Below are positions 1,775 through 44,715 of a stretch of 44,715 nt of DNA, in pieces. The stretch lies in assembly GCA_024228115.1 (NCBI GenBank), contig JAAETT010000465.1:1-44715 (forward strand), written 5' to 3'. The DNA is from a bacterium (GTDB taxonomy: Bacteria > Myxococcota_A > UBA9160 > UBA6930). Numbering within the stretch: the first letter of the stretch is position 1; each line of letters starts with the position of its first letter. The notes under the pieces were generated by a model. The model did no database searches, had not been told where the DNA came from, and saw nothing but the letters and a program-made list of their open reading frames with translations. A program made the translations under genes and the position numbers.

Positions 1775-2707
1775 TCAGAAAATGTTATCCGAGACCCCGC
1801 CAGATAAATCCTCGGAGTCCGCACCAATCATCACCGTGTTTCTATAAGAAGCCCAACACCTCTCCTGGATGCTAGGTCGGTTGAATCCCATCTTCCTTGC
1901 TGTCTCTGAAAGATCCGGACAGCCCTGGATCATGTACCTCAGACAGTCCAGTAGGTGATCGTCCACTGCAATAGGACGCTCACGGATCTCGGTCTCATCT
2001 TGTTTGGCGGGATCAATCTTCTTGTAACGATACTTCTCCACTTCAAAGATAAAGTTCCGCATCGTGCGAAACACGAAGAGAGAAGGTTTTCCGTCATCCT
2101 GGATGTGAAGCCACTTCAGGACGTTTGCGATCCCGTCCTCTACCCGGTTATCAGCGGGACCCGCGAAGATTCCTTCTTCTGCGTACTGGGATGAGAGAGG
2201 TTCGGGAGATTCTGGACGCTGGGAGAACGCAGAGGGATCCATCAGGGTCCAGTCATAGCGCTCTCGAGCTGAGAGAGACCGGATGGCTCCTGAGTTCTCA
2301 GGGACGGTCTTTCTGGAGTGGTAGTATTCCTTGTAGAGGTAGAGAACCCCTTCCGGGCTCAGACATCCCCATAAACAAGCTGTGGGGTTTGCGTAACCCA
2401 GGTCAATAGTTCTGAATCTAGCCCAGGAGGGGTCCAGTTCGATGGGATCGATGATGTGGACCGCGGGGTCCCATGGGGGCATGTAGACCTTCTCACCCTG
2501 GCGAGCCCCAAAGTCCAGCTCCATCTCCGCCCGCCACGCAGCCCCACGGATACCCCCAGGGTAGGACAGAGCCTCGTGCTCAGCCCACTCAGTGGTCTTC
2601 TCAGGGTGTGAAGAGTAATGGTAGGAGACCGCGTTCCAGCCGTTGTAGTACCGCTGGACTTTGATGCCTGGTCTCTCGATGAGGAGTTCAGAGTCTGCTT
2701 CTGCCAT
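1775..2707 (-). CDS. terL: Large terminase, nuclease half (separate gene)
   Basis: This 310-residue protein corresponds to the C-terminal half of a large terminase. Residues 28-70 match the linker usually seen after the ATPase (SYHYSSHPE, then YPGGIRGAAWRAEMELDF). The RNase H-like nuclease follows, with acidic residues D102 in IDLGY, D157 in MDPSA, and D249/D250 with D254 in DDHLLD. In the family this domain cuts concatemeric DNA during packaging. No Walker motifs are present; they lie in a separate gene at 5232-5891. The ATG is preceded by a hairpin whose loop carries the SD sequence. Identification as the nuclease half is strong; whether it works in trans with the ATPase half is inference. 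Confidence 0.92.
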   Translation of the reverse strand: MAEADSELLIERPGIKVQRYYNGWNAVSYHYSSHPEKTTEWAEHEALSYPGGIRGAAWRAEMELDFGARQGEKVYMPPWDPAVHIIDPIELDPSWARFRTIDLGYANPTACLWGCLSPEGVLYLYKEYYHSRKTVPENSGAIRSLSARERYDWTLMDPSAFSQRPESPEPLSSQYAEEGIFAGPADNRVEDGIANVLKWLHIQDDGKPSLFVFRTMRNFIFEVEKYRYKKIDPAKQDETEIRERPIAVDDHLLDCLRYMIQGCPDLSETARKMGFNRPSIQERCWASYRNTVMIGADSEDLSGGVSDNIF

Positions 2708-2709
2708 TC

Positions 2710-2732
2710 AGCCGGCCCCTCCCCGGCCGGCT
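2710..2732 (-). promoter_or_regulatory. Hairpin presenting the ribosome-binding site of the terminase nuclease gene
   Basis: On the transcript strand an 8-bp perfect GC stem (AGCCGGCC / GGCCGGCT) encloses a 7-nt loop, GGGGAGG, which is the SD sequence. The start ATG (2707-2705) follows the stem by 2 nt. Such a stem should affect initiation, so the nuclease half may be under separate translational control. It has no U-tract, so it is not a terminator. Confidence 0.7.
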
Positions 2733-2747
2733 GGGCGGATCCGAGGG

Positions 2748-3755
2748 TCAGGTGAGAAGGGGGAGGTAGAACGCCTCAGTCAGCCGGCCGGGGTGCCACA
2801 TATCGGATACCCATTTGTGACATTTTGTCCCAATTTCCTCAAGCTCTTTCGGGTTCCATTGAAGAATCTTCGCGAGTTCATACCTGAAGTTCTTTGCAAT
2901 CAACCTCATCGTAGGCATCCTCTCACACGTAAAGTCTTTCTCTACAAAGGCTTTCCTTATTTGATATTCAACGTTCTCTGTCAACCCGTGAATGACAACA
3001 CAGCCCGCAGCCATGTACTCCAGCCCTGAGCGGTGGAACCCTCCCGTGACCACCTCATCCACTCCCACCTGGACTGACCGCTTCTTCTCGATGGCCTCCC
3101 AGAGAGGTTCCTTCTCAAGTTCCTCAAGTTTCCACCCGTTAGCACCCTCGTCACTAGTGACCTCCTTCTGGGCGTGCTCGAACCCCTTGCGGATGATCGG
3201 GACTCCCTTGGCCCCTATATAATCTGTGAAGCCTCTCACCGCGAAGGACGTGGAGACCACCTGAGCCCGCTCATTGAAGGGCTTCCATTCCTGGAGCTGG
3301 ACGAGGTAGGGGATCCTTGAGACCGGGACGTCCATGGCCTGATCCCAGATCTGGGACTTCAGCCCCAGGAAGGTGGCTAGTCTCCTGTTCTTGAACGGTC
3401 CCCAGGACCACGGCTGCCAGCCCCAGTAGGGTTCGTAGACGAGCCACGCCTTGGGCCGGTCGTCCTTCTCATCGAAAACTCCATCCTCCCAGCCCACGTC
3501 CATCCTGAGGTGTGGCCCGTTCCCGTGGAGAATGAAGGCGTCCGCCTGATCGTAGAGTAGCCGGTCCACTTTATCCCAGAGGTGGATCTTCCCGAGTGCC
3601 TCCTCAGGCTTAGGGAAGGTTCTTCCGTCTGCTTCCTCGCATCTTCCTGCCACCAAGATGTGCTCGTCATTCGTGTATGTGTTGAGGATCTCTTGGAGGA
3701 CCCAGGGGTATCCCGCGTGCGGACTCAGCGCGATGTGGATGATCTTCCTACTCAT
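2748..3755 (-). CDS. GT-B type glycosyltransferase-like protein
   Basis: This 335-residue protein has an N-terminal beta-alpha start (KIIHIALSPHAGYPW). Near its C-terminus (residues 239-257) is a segment typical of the nucleotide-sugar binding site of GT4-like enzymes: HRSGLEYMAAGCVVI, with the conserved Glu and the small-residue AAG turn. Such enzymes move a sugar from an activated donor to an acceptor. The acceptor here is unknown; phage or host surface glycan, or a virion protein, are options. It overlaps the DUF115-like gene by 4 bp, so the pair is probably co-translated. Unusually, the pair sits between the two halves of the terminase. Confidence 0.75.
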   Translation of the reverse strand: MSRKIIHIALSPHAGYPWVLQEILNTYTNDEHILVAGRCEEADGRTFPKPEEALGKIHLWDKVDRLLYDQADAFILHGNGPHLRMDVGWEDGVFDEKDDRPKAWLVYEPYWGWQPWSWGPFKNRRLATFLGLKSQIWDQAMDVPVSRIPYLVQLQEWKPFNERAQVVSTSFAVRGFTDYIGAKGVPIIRKGFEHAQKEVTSDEGANGWKLEELEKEPLWEAIEKKRSVQVGVDEVVTGGFHRSGLEYMAAGCVVIHGLTENVEYQIRKAFVEKDFTCERMPTMRLIAKNFRYELAKILQWNPKELEEIGTKCHKWVSDMWHPGRLTEAFYLPLLT

Positions 3756-4621
3756 GACTCCTCCTTCGGGTACTCAAGCCACTTCTTTCTCCCAGTACCT
3801 ACCTCTGTCATCCACGTCCCACCCTTTCTCAGACCCTTCTTCAGGCATTCAGGAAGCACGGGAATATTCTTCATCAGGCCCTCCTTCGAAGCCCTGAACA
3901 CCAGACCCCCATTGAAGATCACCTCCCGAGCCCAGGTCTCCGTGATCGAGATCTCCATCATCCAGTGGTGCGGTATCAGACACCTCCGGCAGGGAGCCAG
4001 GTTGGCCTCATAGATAGGAGCGGGCTTGTACCACTTGGTGACGTCGTATCTCGAGATCTTCGTGAGCGAATACGGAAGATAGTCCAGACCCGCCAGGATG
4101 ATCGGAGAACACCCCATCATCCCCGCTGCTAGACAGGCCACGGTGCCTGTCATCCTCACGGAGTAAAGACAGGGAGTTCCTTTCACGTCGGTCATCTGGA
4201 CCATGTCAGACGGTGGTAACATCACGTAGACCTCGTAGTCTTCCTTCTCCCTTCGGGAGGCTATGGTCTCCGAGGCTTCTTTAGCGTGCTTGTCATCTGT
4301 CCTTAAGATAGTAGGGACCTTCAAGTCTTTGAGGAGTTCATTCGCTGCTGGTGGATCCCCAATGACCGCGAAGTCACAATGTTCTTCGATGGCTGCTGCG
4401 TTGCAGGCCATGACCAGACCATCAAAGGTGTCAGGACGGATCGCGTCGTAGGTTGGCCCAGACCCGATAATGAGACATGGACGTCCTTTGTATACCCCGG
4501 TAGCCTGTTCCAGAGCAGAGGCCCCTGCCCGAAGTAGTATCGCACGGGACTCCTCCTTTGCGTTGATATGGACTTCTGGCTTCGTGATCGAGAAGTTCTC
4601 GAAGACCCAGTTCTCACTCAC
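3752..4621 (-). CDS. DUF115/MptE-like protein
   Basis: I place the start at GTG 4621-4619, where GAGGAGG lies 6 nt upstream; the frame stays open further upstream but without such a site. The 289-residue product contains GRPCLIIGSGPT (about residues 46-57) followed by a hydrophobic strand and CNAAA (about 73-77). This is the pattern of DUF115 / 6-hydroxymethylpterin pyrophosphokinase MptE-like proteins, which are often encoded beside glycan or flagellin-glycosylation genes. Later segments (ACLAAGMMGCSPIILAGLDY) fit the same alpha/beta fold. It overlaps the glycosyltransferase gene by 4 bp. A role in glycan or nucleotide-linked sugar chemistry is inference. Confidence 0.7.
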   Translation of the reverse strand: MSENWVFENFSITKPEVHINAKEESRAILLRAGASALEQATGVYKGRPCLIIGSGPTYDAIRPDTFDGLVMACNAAAIEEHCDFAVIGDPPAANELLKDLKVPTILRTDDKHAKEASETIASRREKEDYEVYVMLPPSDMVQMTDVKGTPCLYSVRMTGTVACLAAGMMGCSPIILAGLDYLPYSLTKISRYDVTKWYKPAPIYEANLAPCRRCLIPHHWMMEISITETWAREVIFNGGLVFRASKEGLMKNIPVLPECLKKGLRKGGTWMTEVGTGRKKWLEYPKEES

Positions 4622-4799
4622 CTCTTCCCTCCTCAAGAACGTAGAGCTTGCTACACTTCTTACAGAATCCAAACAACCACCCATGAGCATGATCCATCTC
4701 AAGCTTCCCTTCACACTCCATACAGATCCTCACGTTAGCACTAAGTCTCGCATCACCATGGATCTCTATATCGAAGTACTTGTAAACTTTCTCACTCAC
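4614..4799 (-). CDS. Small zinc-ribbon protein
   Basis: The start is taken as GTG 4799-4797, preceded by GGAGG with 6-nt spacing; a further GTG at 4814 lacks a good site. The 61-residue product has two cysteine pairs, CMEC and CKKC, separated by about 20 residues, the layout of a single zinc ribbon. Its 3' end overlaps the DUF115-like gene by 8 bp. It may be a small nucleic-acid- or protein-binding adaptor; no family is recognised. Confidence 0.7.
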   Translation of the reverse strand: MSEKVYKYFDIEIHGDARLSANVRICMECEGKLEMDHAHGWLFGFCKKCSKLYVLEEGRGE

Positions 4800-4983
4800 C
4801 TTTTCCCTCCCCACTCTTATCCAAGTAATCCGCTAATTCATGCAATTTACTAGGAACCCACCCATACACACCAGAAGTGCCACCCGAATGCAAGATACGA
4901 ACAATCTTTGCCAGCCCTTCGAGAGTCTCTGGTTCCATTGGAGGAATTCCATCTACCTTAGGATCAATCCATGCCCTACTCAC
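4792..4983 (-). CDS. Small hypothetical protein
   Basis: This 63-residue protein begins with GTG in GAGGTGAGTAGG, the same ribosome-site style as its neighbours. It is mostly helical and hydrophilic (PETLEGLAKIVRIL, then SKLHELADYLDK). It overlaps both neighbours by a few bases within the cassette separating the two terminase halves. No function can be given. Confidence 0.65.
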   Translation of the reverse strand: MSRAWIDPKVDGIPPMEPETLEGLAKIVRILHSGGTSGVYGWVPSKLHELADYLDKSGEGKGE

Positions 4984-5222
4984 CTCTTTCTCCTTTTCCT
5001 TTTGACCCAGATAACACTATTGTCCCTCACTGGTGGCTTAGAATGGACTCTCACCAAGAGAGGATCCTCCCATGGCATGATTGTCTCCGTGATCTGACCC
5101 CACCGATGTCTGTGTTGGATGATATCGCCCGTCTTCTCACTCACGTCATAGTAGGCCCACCAGTCTCTCTCACGTCTCCTGAGCATCTCTCTCTTGCACA
5201 CCGGGCACTTGGCTATCTCCAT
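4980..5222 (-). CDS. Small zinc-binding-like basic protein
   Basis: This 80-residue protein starts with a CPVCKREML knuckle and ends in a strongly basic tail (WVKRKRRKR). Only one CxxC is present, so full zinc binding would need the nearby His residues (HRH) or dimerisation. It has GAGGTTGTC just before its ATG and begins 9 bp after the terminase ATPase stop. A nucleic-acid-binding accessory protein is plausible but unproven. Confidence 0.65.
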   Translation of the reverse strand: MEIAKCPVCKREMLRRRERDWWAYYDVSEKTGDIIQHRHRWGQITETIMPWEDPLLVRVHSKPPVRDNSVIWVKRKRRKR

Positions 5223-5231
5223 GACAACCTC

Positions 5232-5891
5232 CTATGCTGACCACCTCCCCTCGAAGATACTTTGGAATTCCCCAGGAGCAGGACTGGATATCAAGATAAG
5301 CTTACCGCCCCCGTGAAGCGTGGGCTTGGCTCCTACGATCGTCTGACCCAGAGCATCCTGGAACGCAGCCTCATCGAACACCATGCCCGAGAACGTGTGC
5401 ATCCGCGCTTGGTTTGATCCCTGAGGCATAGCCATTACCTGAGACACAGGACCATTCGGATGTTCGAACGTGTTCCTCACCTCAGTAGGTCTCAGGCGGT
5501 GCTCATTCTTCATCCAGGAAGGAAGATAGTGGTAACAAAGGCCCATCCTTGTCTCCCCGATGAGCTTTGCTGCATCATCTTCTTTCTTGCTCACGATACC
5601 CCACAACCTCCCAGGTTTGCGTAGGCACTCCCACATCACCATAGCCACCGCTAGCCATGAACACATCAACTGCCTAGACTTGTTGATCACTATGTGCTCG
5701 TTCGCTGGCAAATCCTGCCAGAGCTTCGCGATCACCTCGATGGGTTCAATCACTCGGAACCGCTTGACGGGGTCCTTCTCATCGTGCTCATCCATCGTGT
5801 ACACGAAGGACTTGAGGAAGAGAATGGCATCATCCTTGGCATGAGCCCACGCCATACGCTGAATAGCTTCTTCGGATGGCCTAGCCATCAC
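5232..5891 (-). CDS. terL: Large terminase, ATPase half (separate gene)
   Basis: This 219-residue protein matches the N-terminal packaging motor of a large terminase. A Walker A-type loop in the variant common to terminases, INKSRQLMCS, lies at about residues 69-78. Walker B, MVFDEA, lies at 170-175, and the coupling motif LISSPA at 200-205. It ends just after the coupling motif at FEGRWSA with a normal stop, so it has no nuclease domain; that is encoded 2.5 kb downstream (1775-2707). An SD for the next gene immediately follows the stop, so this is an organised gene boundary, not a simple frameshift. In the family this domain drives DNA into the procapsid. Confidence 0.92.
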   Translation of the reverse strand: MMARPSEEAIQRMAWAHAKDDAILFLKSFVYTMDEHDEKDPVKRFRVIEPIEVIAKLWQDLPANEHIVINKSRQLMCSWLAVAMVMWECLRKPGRLWGIVSKKEDDAAKLIGETRMGLCYHYLPSWMKNEHRLRPTEVRNTFEHPNGPVSQVMAMPQGSNQARMHTFSGMVFDEAAFQDALGQTIVGAKPTLHGGGKLILISSPAPGEFQSIFEGRWSA

Positions 5892-8360: not shown

Positions 8361-8912
8361 TTACTCCTTCTCACAAACAGCCACCACCTCGGTATCCCCG
8401 AGGAGGTTGTAGCTTCGGATTTTCCACCTATCCATCAGACACCCAAGCCACTTCTCTGGCTCCTGGATGATGCGATGACAGTTGCTTCCATCTGGGAGCT
8501 TGTGGATTGCTTCTCTTGCGGAAATCACGAAGAACACCACCTTGCGCGTACACAGCTTGATATGCTCAAAGACCTCAGTGAAACACTCCGGCTCTATGTG
8601 CTCGAGCACGTCTATACAGGCCACAAGTTCGCAAGCAAACGGATCTTCATCCCTGAGGGGGAGTGCTTTTCCATCAATGGCAGGATCATACTCCCACCAA
8701 GAAACCTTCTCCGTAACCCCGGTAGGCATGGCAAGTCGGAGGTCTCCCTTGCCACACCCGTAGTCCAGTACCGAAGAGCACTCATAAGCCTTGATTAACT
8801 CACCAATGGCCTGCGCATACCGCGGGGCCGTGGAGCCCCACTTCTCATCCGCCAGATGCTTCTGACGGTTCAGCTCGAGGTACTCTTCAGTGATGAGGAC
8901 CATGCTACTCAC
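8361..8912 (-). CDS. Class I SAM-dependent methyltransferase
   Basis: This 183-residue protein has the Rossmann-type SAM-binding motif I VLDYGCGKGD at residues 48-57 and the post-motif segment CIDVLEHIEP at about 99-108, typical of small-molecule, lipid or glycan methyltransferases (Methyltransf_11/23 type). It lacks the DPPY/NPPY motif of amino-DNA methylases and the PC motif of cytosine C5 methylases, so it is unlikely to be a DNA base methylase. It may act with the glycosyltransferase-type genes at 2.7-4.6 kb, but they are not adjacent. GAGGAGG precedes GTG 8912; an in-frame ATG at 8903 is an alternative start. Confidence 0.85.
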   Translation of the reverse strand: MSSMVLITEEYLELNRQKHLADEKWGSTAPRYAQAIGELIKAYECSSVLDYGCGKGDLRLAMPTGVTEKVSWWEYDPAIDGKALPLRDEDPFACELVACIDVLEHIEPECFTEVFEHIKLCTRKVVFFVISAREAIHKLPDGSNCHRIIQEPEKWLGCLMDRWKIRSYNLLGDTEVVAVCEKE

Positions 8913-12932: not shown

Positions 12933-13216
12933 CACATCCCTTCAGGAGGGTCAGGGGGAAACTCCATCAAGCCCTCTCTACGTAACTCCTCGAAGCGTGC
13001 CGTCATCCCAAAGAACATCCTCATCCGTGCTTCCCTCATGAACTCCTCAGCACTCTCACCATGGCCAGTAAACTGACGTGCACCTTCAAACGCAGCCTCC
13101 AGAAGCTTCTCACACACCTCCCGTACCGCCTGCTGCGTCCGTATCCGCTCCCGCTGCTCGCACTCTCGCTTGCTGATCTCCATGTACACAACCTCCACGA
13201 GACCATCGAAACTCAT
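12932..13216 (-). CDS. Hypothetical helical protein, second gene of the minus arm
   Basis: The start is chosen at ATG 13216-13214, behind TGGAGGTCAGACAG, the same ribosome-site layout as the early-arm genes. An open frame extends to 13330 but has no comparable site. The 94-residue product is helical and charged (RTQQAVREVCEKLLEAAFEG, EEFMREARMRMFF). An inverted repeat with a consensus -35 hexamer lies 45-63 bp upstream. Function unknown. Confidence 0.65.
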   Translation of the reverse strand: MSFDGLVEVVYMEISKRECEQRERIRTQQAVREVCEKLLEAAFEGARQFTGHGESAEEFMREARMRMFFGMTARFEELRREGLMEFPPDPPEGM

Positions 13217-13260
13217 CTGTCTGACCTCCATTCCCACCACTACCACCCCCCTTACCCCCC

Positions 13261-13279
13261 TGTCAACCCCCAGTTGACA
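13261..13279. promoter_or_regulatory. Perfect inverted repeat, operator candidate
   Basis: TGTCAACCCCCAGTTGACA has 7-bp perfect arms and a 5-bp spacer. On the minus strand its second arm supplies TTGACA, a consensus -35 hexamer, but no good -10 follows at 16-18 bp. It sits just upstream of the 12932-13216 gene. It could bind the phage XRE protein or a host regulator; this is inference from symmetry and position. Confidence 0.5.
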
Positions 13280-13434
13280 AACAGGACATAATGCCCCACT
13301 GCCACTACTACTTACGTACCCCCCGCTCATCCCCCTAGAGAAAGGAAGGCCGGTGCAGGAACTGCCAACGCCTCACGACGATCAGGGACGAGTACCCACC
13401 TGCACCGTTCTCGTCTTCTATCAACCAACCAGCG

Positions 13435-13569
13435 CTAGCTGGATGAAGCCTTTTCCTCTACCCAACACTCTTTACATCTGCCATCCATCAAATCCATTAA
13501 CAAAAACACCCACCCACAACCTACACATCGAAACCAACGAAAACCCCCTGGCATCCCTACGTAACTCAT
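13435..13569 (-). CDS. 44-residue zinc-ribbon microprotein, first gene of the minus arm
   Basis: ATG at 13569-13567 follows GAGGTGAGGGT, the ribosome-site module used through this genome. The 44-residue product contains CVGCGWVFLLMDLMDGRCKEC, a one-ribbon motif of the form CxxCG...L..G.CxxC. The same pattern occurs twice in the early-arm protein at 17573-17872 (CGHEMLEKDLFEGECVVC and CGEMMTRDQLVHGECLVC), indicating a shared small module. It is the furthest-upstream gene I can support in the minus arm. Confidence 0.7.
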   Translation of the reverse strand: MSYVGMPGGFRWFRCVGCGWVFLLMDLMDGRCKECWVEEKASSS

Positions 13570-23691: not shown

Positions 23692-23936
23692 AGGGGGAGT
23701 GCAAGGATGAAGGAAAAGTCCCCCTCCTCGTGGTGAAGCTCTCGAGGGCTCACGCCACCGAGAGCCTCGTGGTGATGAACCTCGAGGATCTTTTGGCTAT
23801 CATCACCAGCCCTGTTGACTTGACAGAGAATGTCATCTTTCGAGATACTGGTTGGTTACGCAAGAAATACGACGGAGTTTATCATGCCCAGCAAGAAAGA
23901 GAGAGAGACGCCCTCCTCCTCGGACCTGTTGATTGA
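23466..23936 (+). CDS. PD-(D/E)XK endonuclease, Holliday-junction-resolvase-like
   Basis: ATG 23466 has AGGAG 8 nt upstream. The 156-residue product has a basic N-terminus and KGHNFERAISRIFR (E20). Next comes the core GDVEGTPPFHIECKN with D49, E59 and K61, a textbook D-(x)9-E-x-K site. Proteins of this size and layout in phages are resolvase or VRR-NUC-like endonucleases that cut branched DNA. It overlaps the gene at 23320 by 226 bp in another frame and the next gene by 53 bp. It sits with the other recombination genes. Confidence 0.75.
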   Translation: MSGSKSRQGKRARRKGHNFERAISRIFRIWWHSTRRGIQSRAGGDEAGDVEGTPPFHIECKNRDRWAIPAWWNKLKGECKDEGKVPLLVVKLSRAHATESLVVMNLEDLLAIITSPVDLTENVIFRDTGWLRKKYDGVYHAQQERERDALLLGPVD

Positions 23937-24108
23937 GGAGACCCTCAAGTCCCTCGAGAAAGCCAAGCATGTGGAGGAGACCGAGTCACGTAAGGCAGGA
24001 CGTCCCGTACCGAAGGATATGCACGCCTGTCCCTCGTGCAAGGCTCTGATCCCAAAGAGCATGGAGATGTGCGCTAGCTGCGTGATGGGGAAGGATCCGA
24101 ACTGGTGA
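23884..24108 (+). CDS. Small protein with C-terminal zinc ribbon
   Basis: ATG 23884 follows ACGGAGTTTATC. The 74-residue product is charged and helical, then has CPSCKALIPKSMEMCASC, a zinc ribbon with two cysteine pairs. It overlaps the resolvase-like gene by 53 bp and the following gene by 4 bp. Function unknown; its position suggests a partner of the nucleases. Confidence 0.65.
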   Translation: MPSKKERETPSSSDLLIEETLKSLEKAKHVEETESRKAGRPVPKDMHACPSCKALIPKSMEMCASCVMGKDPNW

Positions 24109-24311
24109 GACGGAGGTCTTTCCTCAAGTCCTGTCTGGGAGCTATTCTCTTCTCAGTAGCTCCGATGTGGGGATGGGAAGGGTATCACGCTCCTAAGCTT
24201 ACCCCTCTTGAGCAGTTCGATGAGATCTTGAAGGAAGCATACATAGAACCCATCCGAGAGTTTCTGAACTCAAAAACCGATCTCCATGGGGTTATGTTTC
24301 AGAAAAGCTAG
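24105..24311 (+). CDS. Leader-anchored mimic of the major capsid N-terminal arm
   Basis: GTG 24105 overlaps the previous stop. Residues 1-24 are a twin-arginine/signal-like leader: RRRSFLK, then the hydrophobic CLGAILFSVAPMWGW. Residues 35-64 align without gaps to residues 5-34 of this phage's major capsid protein (gene 38708-40003). Fifteen of 30 positions are identical, including FD, LKE, Y, PIR, LNSK and G, with several conservative changes. The protein ends soon after the arm (68 residues). A capsid arm tethered to or exported through the membrane could bind capsid or scaffold, or act as a decoy; this is inference. It is the last gene of the early arm. Confidence 0.75.
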   Translation: MRRRSFLKSCLGAILFSVAPMWGWEGYHAPKLTPLEQFDEILKEAYIEPIREFLNSKTDLHGVMFQKS

Positions 24312-24312
24312 C

Positions 24313-24651
24313 CTACTTCCCAGTCTCGATCTTCCGAAGGCGTGAGTCAATCGAGTCCAGACGAGTCTTGATCTCACTCACATCCTCACGGAACCATTCG
24401 GGCGGAACCCCTTGCATGATCCTTCGCTCGAGTTCCATCCCATCCTTGTCCGTGAAACGGTTGTTCTCGATGGTGCTGAGACGCACCTCGTGAGCCACTG
24501 CGGTGGCCCCGAGTACACACGCCAGATAGAACGCCACCTTGGAGAGAATGTCCCAGACGCGAGAAGGAGGAGACTTCTCATTCACTTTCTTGGCTCCTGT
24601 TTGTCCACTTCCCGCAGTGGCCAAAGCGTATCCTCCTTCCTTACGGGGCAA
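24313..24651 (-). CDS. Single-span membrane protein with C-terminal coiled coil
   Basis: This 112-residue protein is the last gene of the minus arm, tail to tail with the plus arm. A basic N-terminus is followed by a transmembrane span (VAFYLACVLGATAVA) at about residues 39-53. Then comes HEVRLSTIENNRFTDKDGMELE and a helix with IKTRLDSIDSRLRKIE. I recall this span plus RLSTIE.NRFT..DG pattern in many phage membrane proteins sometimes labelled as lysis-associated. A holin- or spanin-like role is possible but unproven. Confidence 0.75.
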   Translation of the reverse strand: MPRKEGGYALATAGSGQTGAKKVNEKSPPSRVWDILSKVAFYLACVLGATAVAHEVRLSTIENNRFTDKDGMELERRIMQGVPPEWFREDVSEIKTRLDSIDSRLRKIETGK

Positions 24652-24665
24652 ACTATTTTGAAATC

Positions 24666-27600
24666 CTACCTCGAGGGGAATGCGTCGTCATAAGCCCCCG
24701 CAGCAAAAAGACCCTGGCTTTCTAGTCCCCTTCTCGCGCTCCCTCTCCTGCGCTCCCATCGGGTCTTGGTGAGTCTTCCGTGGATAGCTTTCGCACGTCC
24801 CCACAGCCACGTCTCCGTGGGGTAGTTCTTCATCAACCAAAGAACAATGGTTCCAGGGTTGGAACTCATGACCCACTTCTCTTCAGCAAGGGCTTTCTGC
24901 GCGTCGTTCGTGATCTGCTGTCTCCGAGATGACTCCTCGCCTCCCACATCCCTGAGTCTGGCAGTCTCCCTGCGGTAGAGCTGAGTGTTCAGATCCTTCG
25001 CTCCTACTGCCTTCTTCAGGTGAAGGGTGATGTCCCCGTCATCGATGAGTTCCCCGGTGTCTCTGTCCCTGAAGACCCCTCCTGACATGAGGGAAACAGT
25101 GCTGTTCACGAAGTTCAGTAGCCCGATAGGTGCCAGCTTCTCGTACAGAGGCCCCTTGAAGTTTCTCTTGACGTCCGCTAGGGCCTTGTCACGGGCGTAC
25201 TCGTTACCTTCCAGGGTGGACTGGCCCAGCTCGAAGACATCCATAGCTTGCTGGGCGAAGGGGCCGGGTCCGAATGCGTGCATCGCTGAAGGATAAGGAG
25301 TCCAGATCATTCTCCGACCTGCAATCTCCACCTCTTCGGACATCTCAGGGCCTGCGAACCAGTTCATGATGTCTATGCCCAAGAGCTGACCCATGGTGAA
25401 GACTGCAAGGTTGGCCTGGATGGTCAGTCTGAGGGGAACGCTGAGGGACTTGACTCCAGCTCCGACGCCACCATATCGAAAGGCATTTCCGACGGTACCA
25501 ACCATTGAGTGAGTGATATTGAGTGGCCAGGTAGCGAGCATTCCAACCATTCGTGACAAAGGGCCTCCTTGGATCGCCATCGGAGTACCCATTTTACCGT
25601 ACTTGAATTGCCACTTGTCAACGAAGTGTCTGGCATACATGAATCTGGCTTCATCGATGGCTCCACTTTTCACGAGTCCAAGGACGGTATTCCCAATGGC
25701 CGGGGCCTGTTGCGCAGCAAGGATACCATTACGGAACTTTTGGATGGCTCCCTTATCCCCCCGCATGACTCCTTCAGCGTGTCTCTCGAGGGTAGTATCG
25801 AAGCGTGACTCAGCAGCTGCGTTTGTCATGGCCCGGTTGAACATATCCGAGATCCGGATCATGACCATCGAGGTGTCCGTGGCCTTCTGGTAGACGTCTC
25901 CCACTCGAGAGCGGAGCATCGATGGTTCACTGGTCAGGGCAGGTTCGAACTGATCAATCAGTCCCTTATCCTGGAGCCTCTTCACTTCATCAATGAAACT
26001 CTGATGTCCCCTACTGAATAGCTTTTGAGCTGCTTTGACACCGTGGTACATGCCCAGCTCAGAGAGTGCGATGTTCGTCTGGAACATATCCCTGAGCATG
26101 TTCATGGGCTTGAGACCCACATAGTGCATATAGGCACCAGACGTTAGTACGCCTGAAATCTTATCACCAAAAAAAGGATCACCCATGGCTCGCTGGAAGT
26201 ACTCCGAGCCCGTCATCTGGTGCATCATACGCGCAAAGTTATTCGCGCTATCCTTGATGAACCTTTCCTTCTTGGTAGGGCGTCCTAGCGCGCGTTGGAT
26301 GAAGGTGGTCCACATATCCAACACGCCCTGTGAGGACTCACCGTAGTTGTTCCGGATGAAAAGAAGCTGTTCCTTAGCCTGCTCCACGGGCCCCTTCAAG
26401 AACTTCTTCTTGGTGCCAGCACTGACGTACTTCTCAAGAAGGATGAGAGGATCCTTGATGAGCTGTTGCTTGGCGTCAGGCTTGCCCTTACGTGGCTTCT
26501 CATACCAGACGTCTATGTCCTCGAGGCGTTCACCCACGTCCGCAGCCATGCGGTTGAGAGTCTCATTCAGGTGGGAGATGTAGTTCTTTCGGTAGCGCTT
26601 GACTCCGAACTCAGTGAATAGTTCATCGAAGATCTCCCGAAAGACCTTCGAGATTCTTTCTACCTTGGGTCGGATCTCTGATGGGACCGATGAGACTGGA
26701 ACTCCATCGAGGACATCGTAAACCCAGGTACTCTCCTGGCGGGTCATCCCCACTCCGCGCTCGAAGACTCCGAATATGGAATTCTTCCGAACAGCTCCCA
26801 CCGCATGAAGTCTGTTCGTGATGCCCTTCATGGTCTTCTTGAAGTAGGGCACTGATAGATCCAAGGCTGTACGGACTGGGTTGTAGACCCTAGTGAAGAT
26901 GTGGTAGTAGCCCGGGTCAGGTTGCCCACGATTCTCCTGGCGGTAGGCCACCTCGTGGATCTGCTTGAGTTGATCGAGGAAACTAGCCTTGGGCGGAGGA
27001 AGATCTCTGGCAGGGGGAATCTCCGAGTTCTTCCCGAGAGATGCCTCGAGGGCTTCGTGGCGAGCTGTGCGAGCTGCCTTGATCTCCTCAGCGGTGACAA
27101 GTCCCTTACCTAGGTCCAAGTCCCACCGGCGAAGAGATCTCATCCTCCGGATGAAGTCCCTCATGGCCCGGGTGATGCCCCCACCTCCAGCCCCCAGCAT
27201 CTCGAACCTGGACCCTGAGGCCACTTCGATGTAGTCCGCCACAGGACCGTGAAGGAGATCCTCCGCCCCCACTCCCTGGGATCTCCTACGCTTGGCCATG
27301 TCCTTGAAGTGGTCCATGGCGAATCTCTCTTCTACCGGGAATCCACCCGCAATCTGGGCATACCGATACTGGGACAAATTGTCCCAGAGCCTCTCGGGTG
27401 GAAGATGTCTGCGCCAATCCTCCATCGTGGTGCCGTGGGGTCTGTACTCGGGAGCCCGGGGGTTGAAGACCGCGAAGTCCTGCCACTCTCCACCTGGCAT
27501 CCGGGACTGAAGAATCTCGTACTCCACCCCCTTCAAGCGGGTGCGCTTGTACTGGACCTCAGCTCCCACGGGAGGAGGCTCTGGAGCTAACCACTCTAGC

Positions 27601-29447
27601 CCGAATCTCTTGGCTCCGCTCGCATCTCTAATCAGGTTGTCGGTAAGGGCTTGGAGCGGAACAGGAAGCTTTCCTGGGGGCTCCAGCTCGGTGACAACCT
27701 CGAGGGGTTTCTTCTCAGCCCCAGCCCGGCGGAGTTCCTCTCGTACCTGCTCTTGGCGTTCCCTACCAGCCACCCTCTCAAAGACTTCTCGCTCCTTGGC
27801 TCGCTTGGCCTCCTGGCGTACCTCCTGACCCCTGCGAGTCTCCGCCTCGAGCCATTCCTCTTGGAACCTCCGGGTGCGCTCCGCCTGCTCCACTGCCAGA
27901 GCCTCAGTGGCACGCCCCTCTCGCTGCGAGAGAAGCCACTGACGGTACTCCTCTTCCACACCCAGGGGTTCCTTGCGCTCCTCTGGGGCACGCTCAGGAC
28001 GTCCTAGACGGTCTAGCTCCTCCACATACCCGCGTACTCGAGGGTCCGTGCTCGAGCGGATGACAGCCTCAGGGACCTCCTCTCCGCGCCTGAGAGCTTC
28101 GTAGATCTCCTTGGCGTGCTCCTTGCGTAGATCAAACTCCCTGATGGAGGGCTTCATCTCTCCGGGAGGAAGATCCTCACGAGCCATAACTGCTGAGACC
28201 CACTCATCTTCGGTCACTTCTGAGGGGGTCCTGACAGCCTCGGGGCCAGGGATAGGATCTCTCCCGAGGATTGCCCGGGCTGCGTTCAGTTCAGTGTTCA
28301 CCTCCCCCGCCCGCTTGGCTAGCGCTTCAACCTCGGATGTTAAGCGAACTCTCTCCGCGTCTAGCTCATCCCGCTTGGTTTCCCAATTCTTCCGATCCTT
28401 GGATCCTCTCTTGCCTTGGTCCGTCTGTCCGTGCTTGGAAATAGCTACCCTGGCAGCCTTTAGCTCATTATCACGCTCCTGCCAGAGACCCTCCTCATCC
28501 TTCATCCGGATGGAGAGATCAGCTACCTTAGCTTGGCTCATCATGCGGTTGGCAGCATCGTAGTGGCCAGCGATGTCCTTCATCTCCTGGGGCGAGAAGG
28601 ACTTGCGAGGACCCACTGTCATCCGTCCCTTGAGGAACTTCATCCAACCTGGGCTCTCGGGGGTGAGACCTTCAGCCACAGCTTCATTGACAGCAGCCTT
28701 CACCTGACCCTGACGAGCGTTCCCCCGGGTGAAGCGGGCACCGCGCGTCACGGCTCCAAAGATGGCCCCTGCTGCCATCCCGGACTCGATGTCTCCTCCC
28801 ATGACCGCCTCCGCGGTCCCGAAGAGAGTTCCACCGAGCGCAGCCTCTCGAGCTGGGCCAGGGACAGCCTTGTAGGCGAGCCTCTCAGCAGTTGCAGGGA
28901 GACGGCCAACAGCGCGTCGTGCTCCTGCCCCCAGGAGCCTGTGGCCTCCCAAAAAGGCTGCCATGGTGCCCGCCTCTCGGGCTGCCCCTGTCAACATCTC
29001 GGAGGGTAATTGCTCAGCCTCAATCTCCCTGCCCAGGTAACGGGCTCCCGCCTCCGCTGCTCCGAACCCTCCCGCTCCTGCAATCGTTCGTCCAGCCTTC
29101 CCTGCCCCGAAGAGTGCTTGTCCCGCTACGGGGATCTTACTGAGGATCCCCGCTCCTCTCACGAAGGGGACGAGGGAGGCAGCGAATCCTGCCACCCCTC
29201 CCACCTTGGAGAGGGTTGGGTGTTTCTCCTCGAGGAGGCGAAGGTGTTCCTTGTGTTCCTCAGTCACGAAGGGATCGGTCAGGCCACCCAGCCTGAGGAA
29301 GTTGTACATCAATGCTTCTGATTCTCTGTCGGGGACGTACGAACTCCCGAAGAGATCGTGCATCTCCTCCCCTTCCCCGAGAAGCCTCTTTTTGCGGGGG
29401 TCTGTCTCATCGAAGAGAGCAGCGAGTCCAGTGTCTTCCTGAGCCAT
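24666..29447 (-). CDS. Very large internal virion (ejection) protein
   Basis: At 1593 residues this is the biggest protein of the phage. The N-terminal 250 residues contain many Gly/Ala-rich hydrophobic stretches (GGVAGFAASLVPFVRGAG, AAGAIFGAVTRGA), as in proteins ejected into the host membrane. Residues about 270-620 are highly charged coiled-coil. The C-terminal half has hydrophobic helices and conserved-looking segments such as FFGDKISGVLTSGAYM and PLNITHSMVGTVGNAF. I see no clear lytic transglycosylase motif. Size, position after nozzle and scaffold-type genes, and sequence style match podoviral inner-core proteins that form a DNA conduit. Some similarity to large polyvalent proteins is possible. 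Confidence 0.75.
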   Translation of the reverse strand: MAQEDTGLAALFDETDPRKKRLLGEGEEMHDLFGSSYVPDRESEALMYNFLRLGGLTDPFVTEEHKEHLRLLEEKHPTLSKVGGVAGFAASLVPFVRGAGILSKIPVAGQALFGAGKAGRTIAGAGGFGAAEAGARYLGREIEAEQLPSEMLTGAAREAGTMAAFLGGHRLLGAGARRAVGRLPATAERLAYKAVPGPAREAALGGTLFGTAEAVMGGDIESGMAAGAIFGAVTRGARFTRGNARQGQVKAAVNEAVAEGLTPESPGWMKFLKGRMTVGPRKSFSPQEMKDIAGHYDAANRMMSQAKVADLSIRMKDEEGLWQERDNELKAARVAISKHGQTDQGKRGSKDRKNWETKRDELDAERVRLTSEVEALAKRAGEVNTELNAARAILGRDPIPGPEAVRTPSEVTEDEWVSAVMAREDLPPGEMKPSIREFDLRKEHAKEIYEALRRGEEVPEAVIRSSTDPRVRGYVEELDRLGRPERAPEERKEPLGVEEEYRQWLLSQREGRATEALAVEQAERTRRFQEEWLEAETRRGQEVRQEAKRAKEREVFERVAGRERQEQVREELRRAGAEKKPLEVVTELEPPGKLPVPLQALTDNLIRDASGAKRFGLEWLAPEPPPVGAEVQYKRTRLKGVEYEILQSRMPGGEWQDFAVFNPRAPEYRPHGTTMEDWRRHLPPERLWDNLSQYRYAQIAGGFPVEERFAMDHFKDMAKRRRSQGVGAEDLLHGPVADYIEVASGSRFEMLGAGGGGITRAMRDFIRRMRSLRRWDLDLGKGLVTAEEIKAARTARHEALEASLGKNSEIPPARDLPPPKASFLDQLKQIHEVAYRQENRGQPDPGYYHIFTRVYNPVRTALDLSVPYFKKTMKGITNRLHAVGAVRKNSIFGVFERGVGMTRQESTWVYDVLDGVPVSSVPSEIRPKVERISKVFREIFDELFTEFGVKRYRKNYISHLNETLNRMAADVGERLEDIDVWYEKPRKGKPDAKQQLIKDPLILLEKYVSAGTKKKFLKGPVEQAKEQLLFIRNNYGESSQGVLDMWTTFIQRALGRPTKKERFIKDSANNFARMMHQMTGSEYFQRAMGDPFFGDKISGVLTSGAYMHYVGLKPMNMLRDMFQTNIALSELGMYHGVKAAQKLFSRGHQSFIDEVKRLQDKGLIDQFEPALTSEPSMLRSRVGDVYQKATDTSMVMIRISDMFNRAMTNAAAESRFDTTLERHAEGVMRGDKGAIQKFRNGILAAQQAPAIGNTVLGLVKSGAIDEARFMYARHFVDKWQFKYGKMGTPMAIQGGPLSRMVGMLATWPLNITHSMVGTVGNAFRYGGVGAGVKSLSVPLRLTIQANLAVFTMGQLLGIDIMNWFAGPEMSEEVEIAGRRMIWTPYPSAMHAFGPGPFAQQAMDVFELGQSTLEGNEYARDKALADVKRNFKGPLYEKLAPIGLLNFVNSTVSLMSGGVFRDRDTGELIDDGDITLHLKKAVGAKDLNTQLYRRETARLRDVGGEESSRRQQITNDAQKALAEEKWVMSSNPGTIVLWLMKNYPTETWLWGRAKAIHGRLTKTRWERRRGSARRGLESQGLFAAGAYDDAFPSR

Positions 29448-38707: not shown

Positions 38708-40003
38708 TTAGACCACGTCCGTGCCTTCAACGTCATCGATCTTCGAACAGCCACCTGGCTTTGTAGTCACCAGCTCACCGAAGAAGAAGATGATCGCGAT
38801 ATAGGCGGGTTCACCTGTAGGAGCCAGGTGGAGGATGGAGCCATCTTCGTCCATCCAGTCAAAGTCAGCCAAGCGCGCGATATAAACGAGACGCTTGTCC
38901 AAGGCAAGAATGGAGTTCTGAGGCGCGAACTTATCTGGAACAATCGGGATGCCGTTGTACTCGATGAAGTCCATGGCATCATCGTTCTCAGCGTAGCCCG
39001 CAGGAAGCCTCATCGTGTTGGGATAGCGCTTCTGAAGTAGCTGCTGTTGCTCGAAGGCATCCCTAACACCGAAGGTCGTCACGAAACAATTGATCTTCCC
39101 ACCGGCCTTGATGTTCGCAGCATCAATGGACTGCTGAAGCAAGGTAGTAGAGACAGTACGGTTGGTCCCACCGTTCCCCAGAATCGTGGAGTTGAACCAA
39201 GCATTCGCGGTTCTATCGATGTTCTGGAGATTCGTGACACCAGCAGTCGTGTAGAGATACGGGTTCGTTTCCGCGATAACACCATCGAGACCCATCATCT
39301 CGTGACGTTGATCTCGGGTTCTCGCACCCGCACGACCGACCATGTACTGAGTAGCAGTACCAACAGTCACGTCTTGGTTAAACGTGATGATCCCAGTGTT
39401 CGTTGCCACATTTGTAACTCTTATCCCTTGATAGAGAATCGAGTCATCCGTAGACACGCCAGTAGGATCTGTGTGTGAAGTCGTTGCGTTGTCATCCCAG
39501 ACGTCACATAACATCTGCTCACCAAACCGGCGGGCTTCTGCTGCAACACTGAGAGTCATCGTTGTAGTAGAATGTGATGCGATACCGCTGGGGGCCAAGT
39601 CACAGTCACCATTGCCAAGGATAACCCTGTTCAGGTCATCCTTCATGTCAATCGGAAGTCCCTCCACCTCTGTGCGAATCGCCCGAGCAAACGCACCAGC
39701 GGATGAACGAGACTGACTGATGACTTCTTGTCTGACCTTCAGTTGCCCGTAGTAGTACTTCGGGGGAATCTTCAGGTCCTCGTATCCTTGAGCCCCGGCA
39801 ACAGGTACGTTCGCTGTGCTTCCAATGAAGCCAAACCCTTGGTTTCGCGTCTTGCGTACCGGAATGACCATCTCACGACCGCCCTCATCATCCTTCTTAT
39901 CAAGGATTCCGTAGACGGTGTCTTTGGAGTTCAGCTCATCCCGGATCGGACCAAGGTAGACTTCCTTCAGCACAGCATCGAACGTGCTGAGGGTAGTTGC
40001 CAA
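38708..40003 (-). CDS. Major capsid protein (HK97-like)
   Basis: This 431-residue protein has an N-terminal arm (FDAVLKEVYLGPIRDELNSK) of the kind common in HK97-fold capsid proteins, a central region with VRKTRNQGFGF and VAGAQGYEDLKIPPKYYYG, and a C-terminal part with FIEYNGIPIVPDKFAP and LAPTGEPAYI. It lies after the scaffold gene, the expected order. The start codon is TTG at 40003-40001, behind AGGAG with 7-nt spacing; the frame has a stop upstream and no ATG before the arm. A copy of residues 5-34 occurs in the 24105-24311 gene. Confidence 0.9.
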   Translation of the reverse strand: MATTLSTFDAVLKEVYLGPIRDELNSKDTVYGILDKKDDEGGREMVIPVRKTRNQGFGFIGSTANVPVAGAQGYEDLKIPPKYYYGQLKVRQEVISQSRSSAGAFARAIRTEVEGLPIDMKDDLNRVILGNGDCDLAPSGIASHSTTTMTLSVAAEARRFGEQMLCDVWDDNATTSHTDPTGVSTDDSILYQGIRVTNVATNTGIITFNQDVTVGTATQYMVGRAGARTRDQRHEMMGLDGVIAETNPYLYTTAGVTNLQNIDRTANAWFNSTILGNGGTNRTVSTTLLQQSIDAANIKAGGKINCFVTTFGVRDAFEQQQLLQKRYPNTMRLPAGYAENDDAMDFIEYNGIPIVPDKFAPQNSILALDKRLVYIARLADFDWMDEDGSILHLAPTGEPAYIAIIFFFGELVTTKPGGCSKIDDVEGTDVV

Positions 40004-40030: not shown

Positions 40031-40906
40031 TCAGCCTTCTCTCCTGTTTCTTTCTTCCAGGAAAGCTACAGCTTTCTCGTCCACGGCGTCCCAGTCTACT
40101 GAACCATCCCGTCTCGGGGAGATGCGCTCCGCAGCCTTAGCCTTGGGGGTAGGACTGCGTGCATCAGCCGTCTTCGGGACCGTCATGCGCTTACCTTTCT
40201 CCTTGGATTCAGCGTACTTCGCGAGAATACGAGCCTCTCGCTTCTTCTGCTTCTCGTTCAGAGATTCAATAAGCTCATCAGCCTTCCGGGTATAGTTATC
40301 CAGGCTCACAGACCGATCAGTGAACAGCCCTTTCAAGACTTCCTCTACATGCTCCTCGGGATCATCCTTGAGGTGAGTGGTCTTCTTCAATTTCTTGATG
40401 ACAGTCCCTTGAAGGGCTGCCATCGCACGGCGCTTCTGCTCCGCCTGAAGAGTCTCCTTCACCTCTCGGACTTCATTCCGAAGATCAGATTCTTGTTTCT
40501 CTGTGGCTGCCTCAGGGTCTCCCGCGAGATATCTCGTGGCTGCTTCAGGATCGTTCGAAGCAAGACTCCTGACATGCTCGAATTCTCGTAGCTTGTTCTC
40601 CAGGTCAGAACGTGCCCTCTCGAGATCGCGCTCGCGCTGAGATAAATCCTGAGATCTACGAGTGTGAGCAGCCACCATGCCACTCACGTTCTCATCGTTC
40701 TCAAGCATCTTGTCCCATTGCTCACGAGTGACCTTCCTGCCAAAGACATCGAGTTCCTCAGGCGTTTCTTCTCCCTGAGGTTCGTTATTACTCTCAGTTT
40801 CTTCGGAAGACTCTTCGGTCTCTTCAGATACGTCTTCTCCGGACTCCACACGCTTCTCGAGTTCTTCGATCTTTTGATCGATCTCTTTACTGTTTCCTAA
40901 ACCCAT
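40031..40906 (-). CDS. Capsid scaffolding protein
   Basis: The start is ATG 40906-40904, behind AGGAGAATCTCAGTC; an earlier in-frame start at 40957 lacks this. The 291-residue product is highly charged, with an acidic Ser/Glu/Asn-rich N-terminal half (EESSEETESNNEPQGEE), a long coiled coil (SQRERDLERARSDLENKLRE) and a basic C-terminus. This is characteristic of scaffolding proteins, and it sits between portal and capsid genes. It should be lost from the mature head. Confidence 0.82.
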   Translation of the reverse strand: MGLGNSKEIDQKIEELEKRVESGEDVSEETEESSEETESNNEPQGEETPEELDVFGRKVTREQWDKMLENDENVSGMVAAHTRRSQDLSQRERDLERARSDLENKLREFEHVRSLASNDPEAATRYLAGDPEAATEKQESDLRNEVREVKETLQAEQKRRAMAALQGTVIKKLKKTTHLKDDPEEHVEEVLKGLFTDRSVSLDNYTRKADELIESLNEKQKKREARILAKYAESKEKGKRMTVPKTADARSPTPKAKAAERISPRRDGSVDWDAVDEKAVAFLEERNRREG

Positions 40907-40989
40907 GACTGAGATTCTCCTGACACCAATCGGTTGGTCAGAATTTACGTATGTCACTCAGGGACGCCACTCGGTTGGTCCCACGCCCG

Positions 40990-44447: not shown

Positions 44448-44715
44448 CCCCTTAGCGAAACTCGGTGGTCTTTATACACGAGGGCGGATAGCGCGTCGTT
44501 GACTCTCCACACCACCTTGTCTCCTGGAAACAGAAACATCGGGGTTGGCAATGTGTATCTGTAGAAGACATAGTCAAAGTTAGAGGAATGCCAATCCACC
44601 GTAGGTCCCTTCAAGATTTCCCATCCATGGGTAAGAACATCCGCATGACTCTGAACCTCTGTATCGTCCGCTATCCGATGGATGTTATACTCAACCCCGT
44701 CCATCAGAAAAAAGA
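44426..44715 (-). CDS. 3' part of the structural gene crossing the circle join
   Basis: This is the C-terminal end of the 209-residue protein whose 5' part is at 1-481; bases 44575-44715 duplicate 1-141. It ends in YKDHRVSLRGWVEDFK with a stop at 44426. Segments such as YVFYRYTLPTPMFLFPGDKV look like a beta domain. Function unknown. Confidence 0.85.
   Translation of the reverse strand, partial: FFLMDGVEYNIHRIADDTEVQSHADVLTHGWEILKGPTVDWHSSNFDYVFYRYTLPTPMFLFPGDKVVWRVNDALSALVYKDHRVSLRGWVEDFK
44575..44715. repeat. Right copy of 141-bp terminal redundancy
   Basis: Identical to bases 1-141, which closes the contig into a circle. See the left copy for interpretation. Confidence 0.95.

Follow-up and report, generated by a model that had tools for sequence, protein, structure and literature searches.

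Tab, a small protein of Pseudomonas prophage JBD26, is described in the excerpted text of its report as a tail assembly blocker, for which an anti-Tab partner exists and homologues are reported only near JBD26 (PMC10884400). Virion proteins are also recognized by host defences. The major capsid protein (MCP) and terminase have been named as triggers of bacterial immunity: the MCP with CapRel(SJ46), the Gol peptide of the T4 MCP with Lit, and terminase with STAND systems (PMC9712102). A third relevant precedent comes from the Tat pathway, which exports folded complexes with the signal on one partner only (hitchhiking), as exemplified by PaoABC (PMC4273604).

In the window – the whole stretch of 44,715 nucleotides analyzed here – a small early gene was distinguished whose product joins a Tat-type leader to a segment copied from the N-terminal arm of the MCP encoded by the phage itself. 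Tab is comparable as a small phage protein acting on virion proteins, and the Tab-sensitive C-terminus of the tape-measure protein is also a tail source in the class of Tat-leader proteins described below; the excerpts concerned, however, present Tab without a Tat leader and without a virion-protein copy (PMC10884400). With Gol/Lit and CapRel(SJ46) the common element is a host defence protein that recognizes the MCP, in the Gol case through a short stretch, but the trigger there is the real phage MCP (PMC9712102). PaoABC likewise has a Tat-signal subunit able to carry partners from the cytoplasm (PMC4273604), but these are host enzymes and not phage baits, and Tat use by the phage protein is predicted from its motif only. 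The HK97-fold MCPs of PHROG 14242 are the source of the arm (FDxxLKExYxxPIRxxLN), whereas the small protein has no capsid domain past it. We know of no separately encoded, leader-tethered MCP copy in the Gol/Lit or CapRel systems. A search of an open-access library of published papers found no description of leader-tethered virion-protein copies.

The window carries at its ends an exact 141-bp direct repeat (positions 1-141 and 44575-44715) and thus probably represents the complete, circular genome of a phage, about 44.6 kb in length. It is one contig within a 700-contig, 6.4-Mb bin (G000), which contains a TatC match (E 2.4e-69) and is assumed to be the host from binning only. The small gene (24105..24311, + strand; 68 aa, GTG start, TAG stop) is preceded at a distance of 9 nt by the Shine-Dalgarno sequence AAGGA (24091-24095, + strand), and its start overlaps, as GTGA, the stop (24106-24108, + strand) of the preceding early gene (23830..24108, + strand), which encodes a 92-aa protein with a weak zinc-ribbon match. 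As had been claimed, it closes the early cluster, being the final + strand gene before the convergent - strand late genes. The neighbour at the late-strand end (24313..24651, - strand) encodes a 112-aa protein with one hydrophobic segment, a likely coiled coil and a weak XhlA-like match below the cut-off.

The protein begins with VRRRSFLK, followed by a hydrophobic stretch and KLTPLEQFDEILKEAYIEPIREFLNSKTDLHGVMFQKS. By direct reading of the sequence, the twin-arginine motif RRRSFLK occupies residues 2-8 (24108..24128, + strand) and the 16 moderately hydrophobic residues SCLGAILFSVAPMWGW occupy residues 9-24 (24129..24176, + strand), so the leader described earlier is present in the translation and has the motif of Tat substrates. 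No AxA cleavage site is visible near SCLGAILFSVAPMWGW on direct reading. From this motif we infer that the small protein would engage Tat.

Residues 32-66 (24198..24302, + strand) align without gaps with residues 3-37 of the MCP (39893..39997, - strand), and 17/35 are identical. Over the shorter span that had been singled out at first inspection (residues 35-64 against MCP residues 5-34), exactly the 15 identities claimed were counted (L, FD, LKE, Y, PIR, LNSK, G). The MCP itself (38708..40003, - strand; 431 aa) belongs to PHROG 14242 (E 1.5e-56), and its HK97 fold is supported by a structure model with which Foldseek matched the capsids 9ny2, 7f38, 6j3q, SU10 and HK97. In this model (mean pLDDT 61) helices are predicted at residues 2-24 and 30-34, preceding the E-loop. 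Directly upstream of the MCP gene lies that of a charged, coiled-coil-like protein of 308 aa (40031..40957, - strand), the probable scaffold, as judged from position and composition only.

When the whole bin was searched with the protein, a single place scored below E 0.8, namely the MCP arm (E 2e-5). An arm HMM built from 31 MCP arms of other phages, with the window excluded, gave the small protein 35.2 bits (i-E 5e-9 among 15,311 ORFs), against 13 bits for the best of 20,000 shuffled tails, and the predicted match to capsid arms is significant at the profile level. In a whole-genome scan with a further profile (A1), whose alignment included the query, the small protein scored E 4.5e-16. Among 2.9 million viral contigs the arm motifs are essentially confined to MCP N-termini: FDxxLKExYxxPIR was found in 13 IMG/VR contigs, 13/13 times at the MCP N-terminus, and LKExYxxPIRxxLN in 41, each time at the same place. 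In genome contigs the arm pattern gave 2 matches, both without an ORF match. The tail of the small protein is a diverged copy of the N-terminal arm of its own MCP.

The copy is old, yet among 76 arms its nearest is that of its own MCP (score 91, next 78). Over 35 codons the two DNA segments are identical at 61/105 nt, and 9/17 of the identical residues use the same codon. The estimates of dS (about 2.1) and dN (about 0.45) give dN/dS of about 0.2 for this short alignment; both the exclusion of a recent duplication and the retention of the copy by selection, as proposed from the first inspection, accord with these values. Conserved MCP columns tended to be preferentially kept in the copy (Mann-Whitney, p 0.09), which is suggestive only. 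The possibility that the window gene is a decaying fragment free of purifying selection is opposed by the dN/dS ratio, computed on a short alignment chosen by similarity.

Homologues of the window gene were found neither in viral contigs (by peptide patterns), nor in INPHARED (tblastn), nor in 60 related genomes. About 80 virus records with related MCPs, no close relative among them, lack a second arm, so the small gene is not general in this MCP family, and nothing points to an ancestral presence of the feature in it. Of the sequence checks proposed at first inspection, the expectation that relatives would carry leader and arm at the same locus was the one not borne out, in these records.

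Similar proteins were sought in other phages. Scans with an RR-leader DNA pattern gave dozens of small phage proteins, whose whole records were fetched; a second leader pattern (MKRR) added few. Each tail (from residue 20) was matched against the large ORFs of the phage it came from; shuffled tails served as the null and other small ORFs as controls. Duplicates and self matches were removed before the combined test; the control matches removed from the third set were self matches in G183, G205 and L370 and a contig-end repeat in G196. A large protein of the same phage was matched at p<0.01 by 23/96 distinct Tat proteins and 24/940 controls (Fisher 3.6e-13), and at p<1e-3 by 16/96 and 8/940, respectively; these counts include the window protein and related pairs, and the p values are rough (40 shuffles and a fitted extreme-value curve), the comparison with controls being firmer. 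The first two sets without the window gave 16/54 Tat proteins against 11/565 controls, while the third set alone, gathered after the idea was formed, gave 6/41 against 13/375 (p 0.0065).

This excess of tails matching own proteins is restricted to RR leaders. Among small ORFs whose hydrophobic leader lacks the RR pair, 2/95 reached p<0.01 and 0/95 reached p<1e-3, as compared with 8/29 and 7/29 for the Tat proteins in the same comparison; Sec-like leaders show no such excess. About three quarters of the sampled Tat small proteins had no significant match, in some cases owing to incomplete records. The IMG/VR records are mostly fragments, and the sample was drawn by leader motif. Six further members of the class had no match in INPHARED. 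Tat-leader copies of own virion proteins look like an undescribed, widespread class.

The targets that could be identified are mostly virion or packaging proteins, namely MCP, portal, terminase, tape measure and tail fibre. PHROG assignments confirmed the major head protein in G136, G157, G158, G155, G137, G132 (a weak match, p 0.03-0.04), G184 and G196, terminase in G140, portal in G200, tape measure in G195, G186 and G203 (p 0.013 in the last), and tail fibre in G206. A target family of 400-446 aa in G144, G145, G151 and G160 is probably the MCP, and in G160 a run of 63 residues matches the start of the family protein at 63%; since the 446-aa family had no PHROG match and its structure model was useless (pLDDT 29), the MCP label is given tentatively. 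In G143 (lectin-like), G171, G139 and G173 the matched protein lacks an assignment or does not belong to the virion head. Capsid arms, to which the sequence-only reading had given a special role, are not singled out by this survey: in other phages the same leader precedes different MCP segments, or segments taken from portal, terminase, tape measure or tail fibre.

Several loci of the survey deserve separate mention. Two adjacent Tat-leader genes of G151 (L255; 9631-10249, - strand) have tails equivalent to residues 13-48 and 306-331 of one 432-aa protein, and two nearby Tat-leader proteins of G157 (L267; 50705-51975, + strand) match the MCP stretches 272-296 and 113-147. Terminase Walker A-like tails with altered motif residues (GGRGPGSKA; KARSIGMSTL) occur in G140 (L238; 10943-11191) and G170 (L290; 16637-16858), the within-genome match supporting G140 only. 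A single small ORF without a Tat leader, in G156 (L263; 17071-17295, + strand), has a tail similar to one segment of a possible MCP, an ORF of 343 aa.

The closest parallel to the window gene was found in G196, a 51-kb contig whose MCP also belongs to PHROG 14242. The top two matches of the arm profile on this contig were a Tat protein (13120-13443) and the MCP (3377-4705); TGLTTAQVDGLLKEAYSHPTIEQLQARNP of the former aligns with TGANTVTIDGLLKENYESFVAEQVNQKNP of the latter, beginning at MCP residue 2, with 14/29 identities. Each mimic resembles its own MCP more than that of the other phage: the own-pair scores are 91 (window) and 71 (G196), whereas the cross scores are 35 for the window mimic with the G196 MCP and 49 for the G196 mimic with the window MCP. 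The two mimics score 50 against each other and the two MCPs 46, and the own MCP of G196 outscores each of the 76 arms as a partner of its mimic. These relations indicate that the copies arose separately or that each follows its own MCP. The G196 pair was recovered by the arm profile and missed by the blind within-genome test (p 0.37), since the set of target ORFs did not contain its MCP. G184 has the same layout with a different MCP family.

Among the functions suggested for the window protein at first inspection, that of a decoy for a host sensor of capsid protein appears to fit best. We tentatively hypothesize, as a reading that is possible rather than probable, that these proteins may be early bait peptides, retained at Tat or exported by it, for host proteins that recognize the virion proteins of the phage itself. 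The tail would be made ahead of the late proteins and would present the surface by which a host protein recognizes the MCP, portal, terminase or tail protein of the phage. The partner would most likely be an immune sensor, possibly a chaperone or a protease. Through the Tat leader, the captured host protein might then be retained at the TatBC receptor or leave the cytoplasm along with the bait, and recognition would be blunted once the real virion proteins appear. We favour this proposal since the copies keep to the sequences of the phage's own proteins, MCP and terminase are known triggers and are found among the sources, the gene in the window is an early one, and partners bound to a Tat substrate can be transported with it. 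A decoy of a sensor of self must follow the self sequence, and mimics that track their own MCP thus count in favour of a bait. On the other side, a short tail may fail the folding control of Tat, and pieces of tape-measure and tail-fibre proteins are less familiar as immune triggers. Because the known sensors reside in the cytoplasm, a bait that is fully exported would lose contact with them, and the model needs stalling or co-export.

The tracking of the own MCP also bears on interference with virion assembly. Poisoning the capsids of a relative, as had been suggested, fits poorly because the copies track the own MCP; a membrane-held arm could instead bind the MCP or scaffold and, in a Tab-like manner, prevent capsids from assembling when an identical or near-identical phage superinfects, and the resemblance of the mimic to its own MCP means that such kin would be affected. 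Several of the copied segments (the MCP arm, the C-terminal region of the tape measure, portal) are plausible interaction segments, and inhibition by Tab maps, according to the excerpted report, to the tape-measure C-terminus, although Tab is not described there as a virion-protein copy (PMC10884400). The phage's own assembly would suffer as well, however, and no anti-Tab-like protein came to notice. Early timing and the Tat leader would also be left without explanation, and we regard this alternative as rather unlikely.

It is likewise doubtful, in our estimate, that only the leader is functional, for example by blocking Tat or acting on the membrane, with late-gene fragments captured by recombination serving merely as filler or stabilizer. 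The leader is indeed the common feature, tail sources and positions vary widely, and one pair, L192/G149, is a recent, near-identical duplication. In 25 pairs, however, 30-73% of the tail residues are kept although synonymous differences have almost reached saturation (pooled pS 0.72, pN 0.39, the latter biased downward since the short alignments were chosen by protein similarity). Unconstrained fragments of such age would be unrecognizable, and almost every identified target is a virion or packaging gene rather than a random one. The selection data thus speak against recent or decaying capture.

A membrane protein that senses capsid accumulation appears improbable. Its tail would be bound to or competed by the MCP, and lysis timing would be coupled to the build-up of virion proteins; any virion interface could serve as such a readout, which matches the variety of tails, and the gene adjoins that of the convergent small membrane protein with the XhlA-like match. 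Nevertheless, Tat signals put the tail outside the cytoplasm, the gene sits in the early cluster, and family searches of the window proteins found no relation to holins. Nucleation of procapsids at the membrane by the tethered arm accounts least for the wider class and is very improbable: arms of HK97-type capsids make inter-subunit contacts and the MCP arm is predicted to be helical and lies ahead of the E-loop, but with the predicted topology the arm would face the wrong side, relatives form virions although they lack a tethered arm, and terminase, tape-measure, tail-fibre and internal MCP tails are not accounted for.

Taken by themselves, the sequences already show something unusual: in unrelated phages, one kind of export leader is fused to copies of the phage's virion proteins that have diverged under constraint. 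If the tails are baits, they would reveal which phage proteins and stretches are recognized by hosts, and could help to find new defences triggered by MCP, portal or tail proteins. The broader proposal, that many environmental tailed phages make early Tat-leader baits from their own virion proteins as a new kind of anti-defence by self-mimicry, seems to us unlikely as yet. If the proteins act as assembly blockers, they would add a new class to the known superinfection inhibitors. In both cases, many phage "hypothetical Tat-signal proteins" become testable by asking what each of them copies.

Other features were noted on the - strand of the window. A 1593-aa protein without a PHROG match (24666-29447) is encoded on the late strand adjoining the convergent junction, and a methyltransferase-like protein (Methyltransf_23, E 2e-5, below the cut-off) is encoded at 8361-8912. 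The terminase large subunit (1775-5891) looks split: two ORFs without clear family (2748-3755 and 3752-4714), perhaps an insertion, lie between its nuclease-like portion (1775-2707) and its ATPase-like portion (5232-5891).
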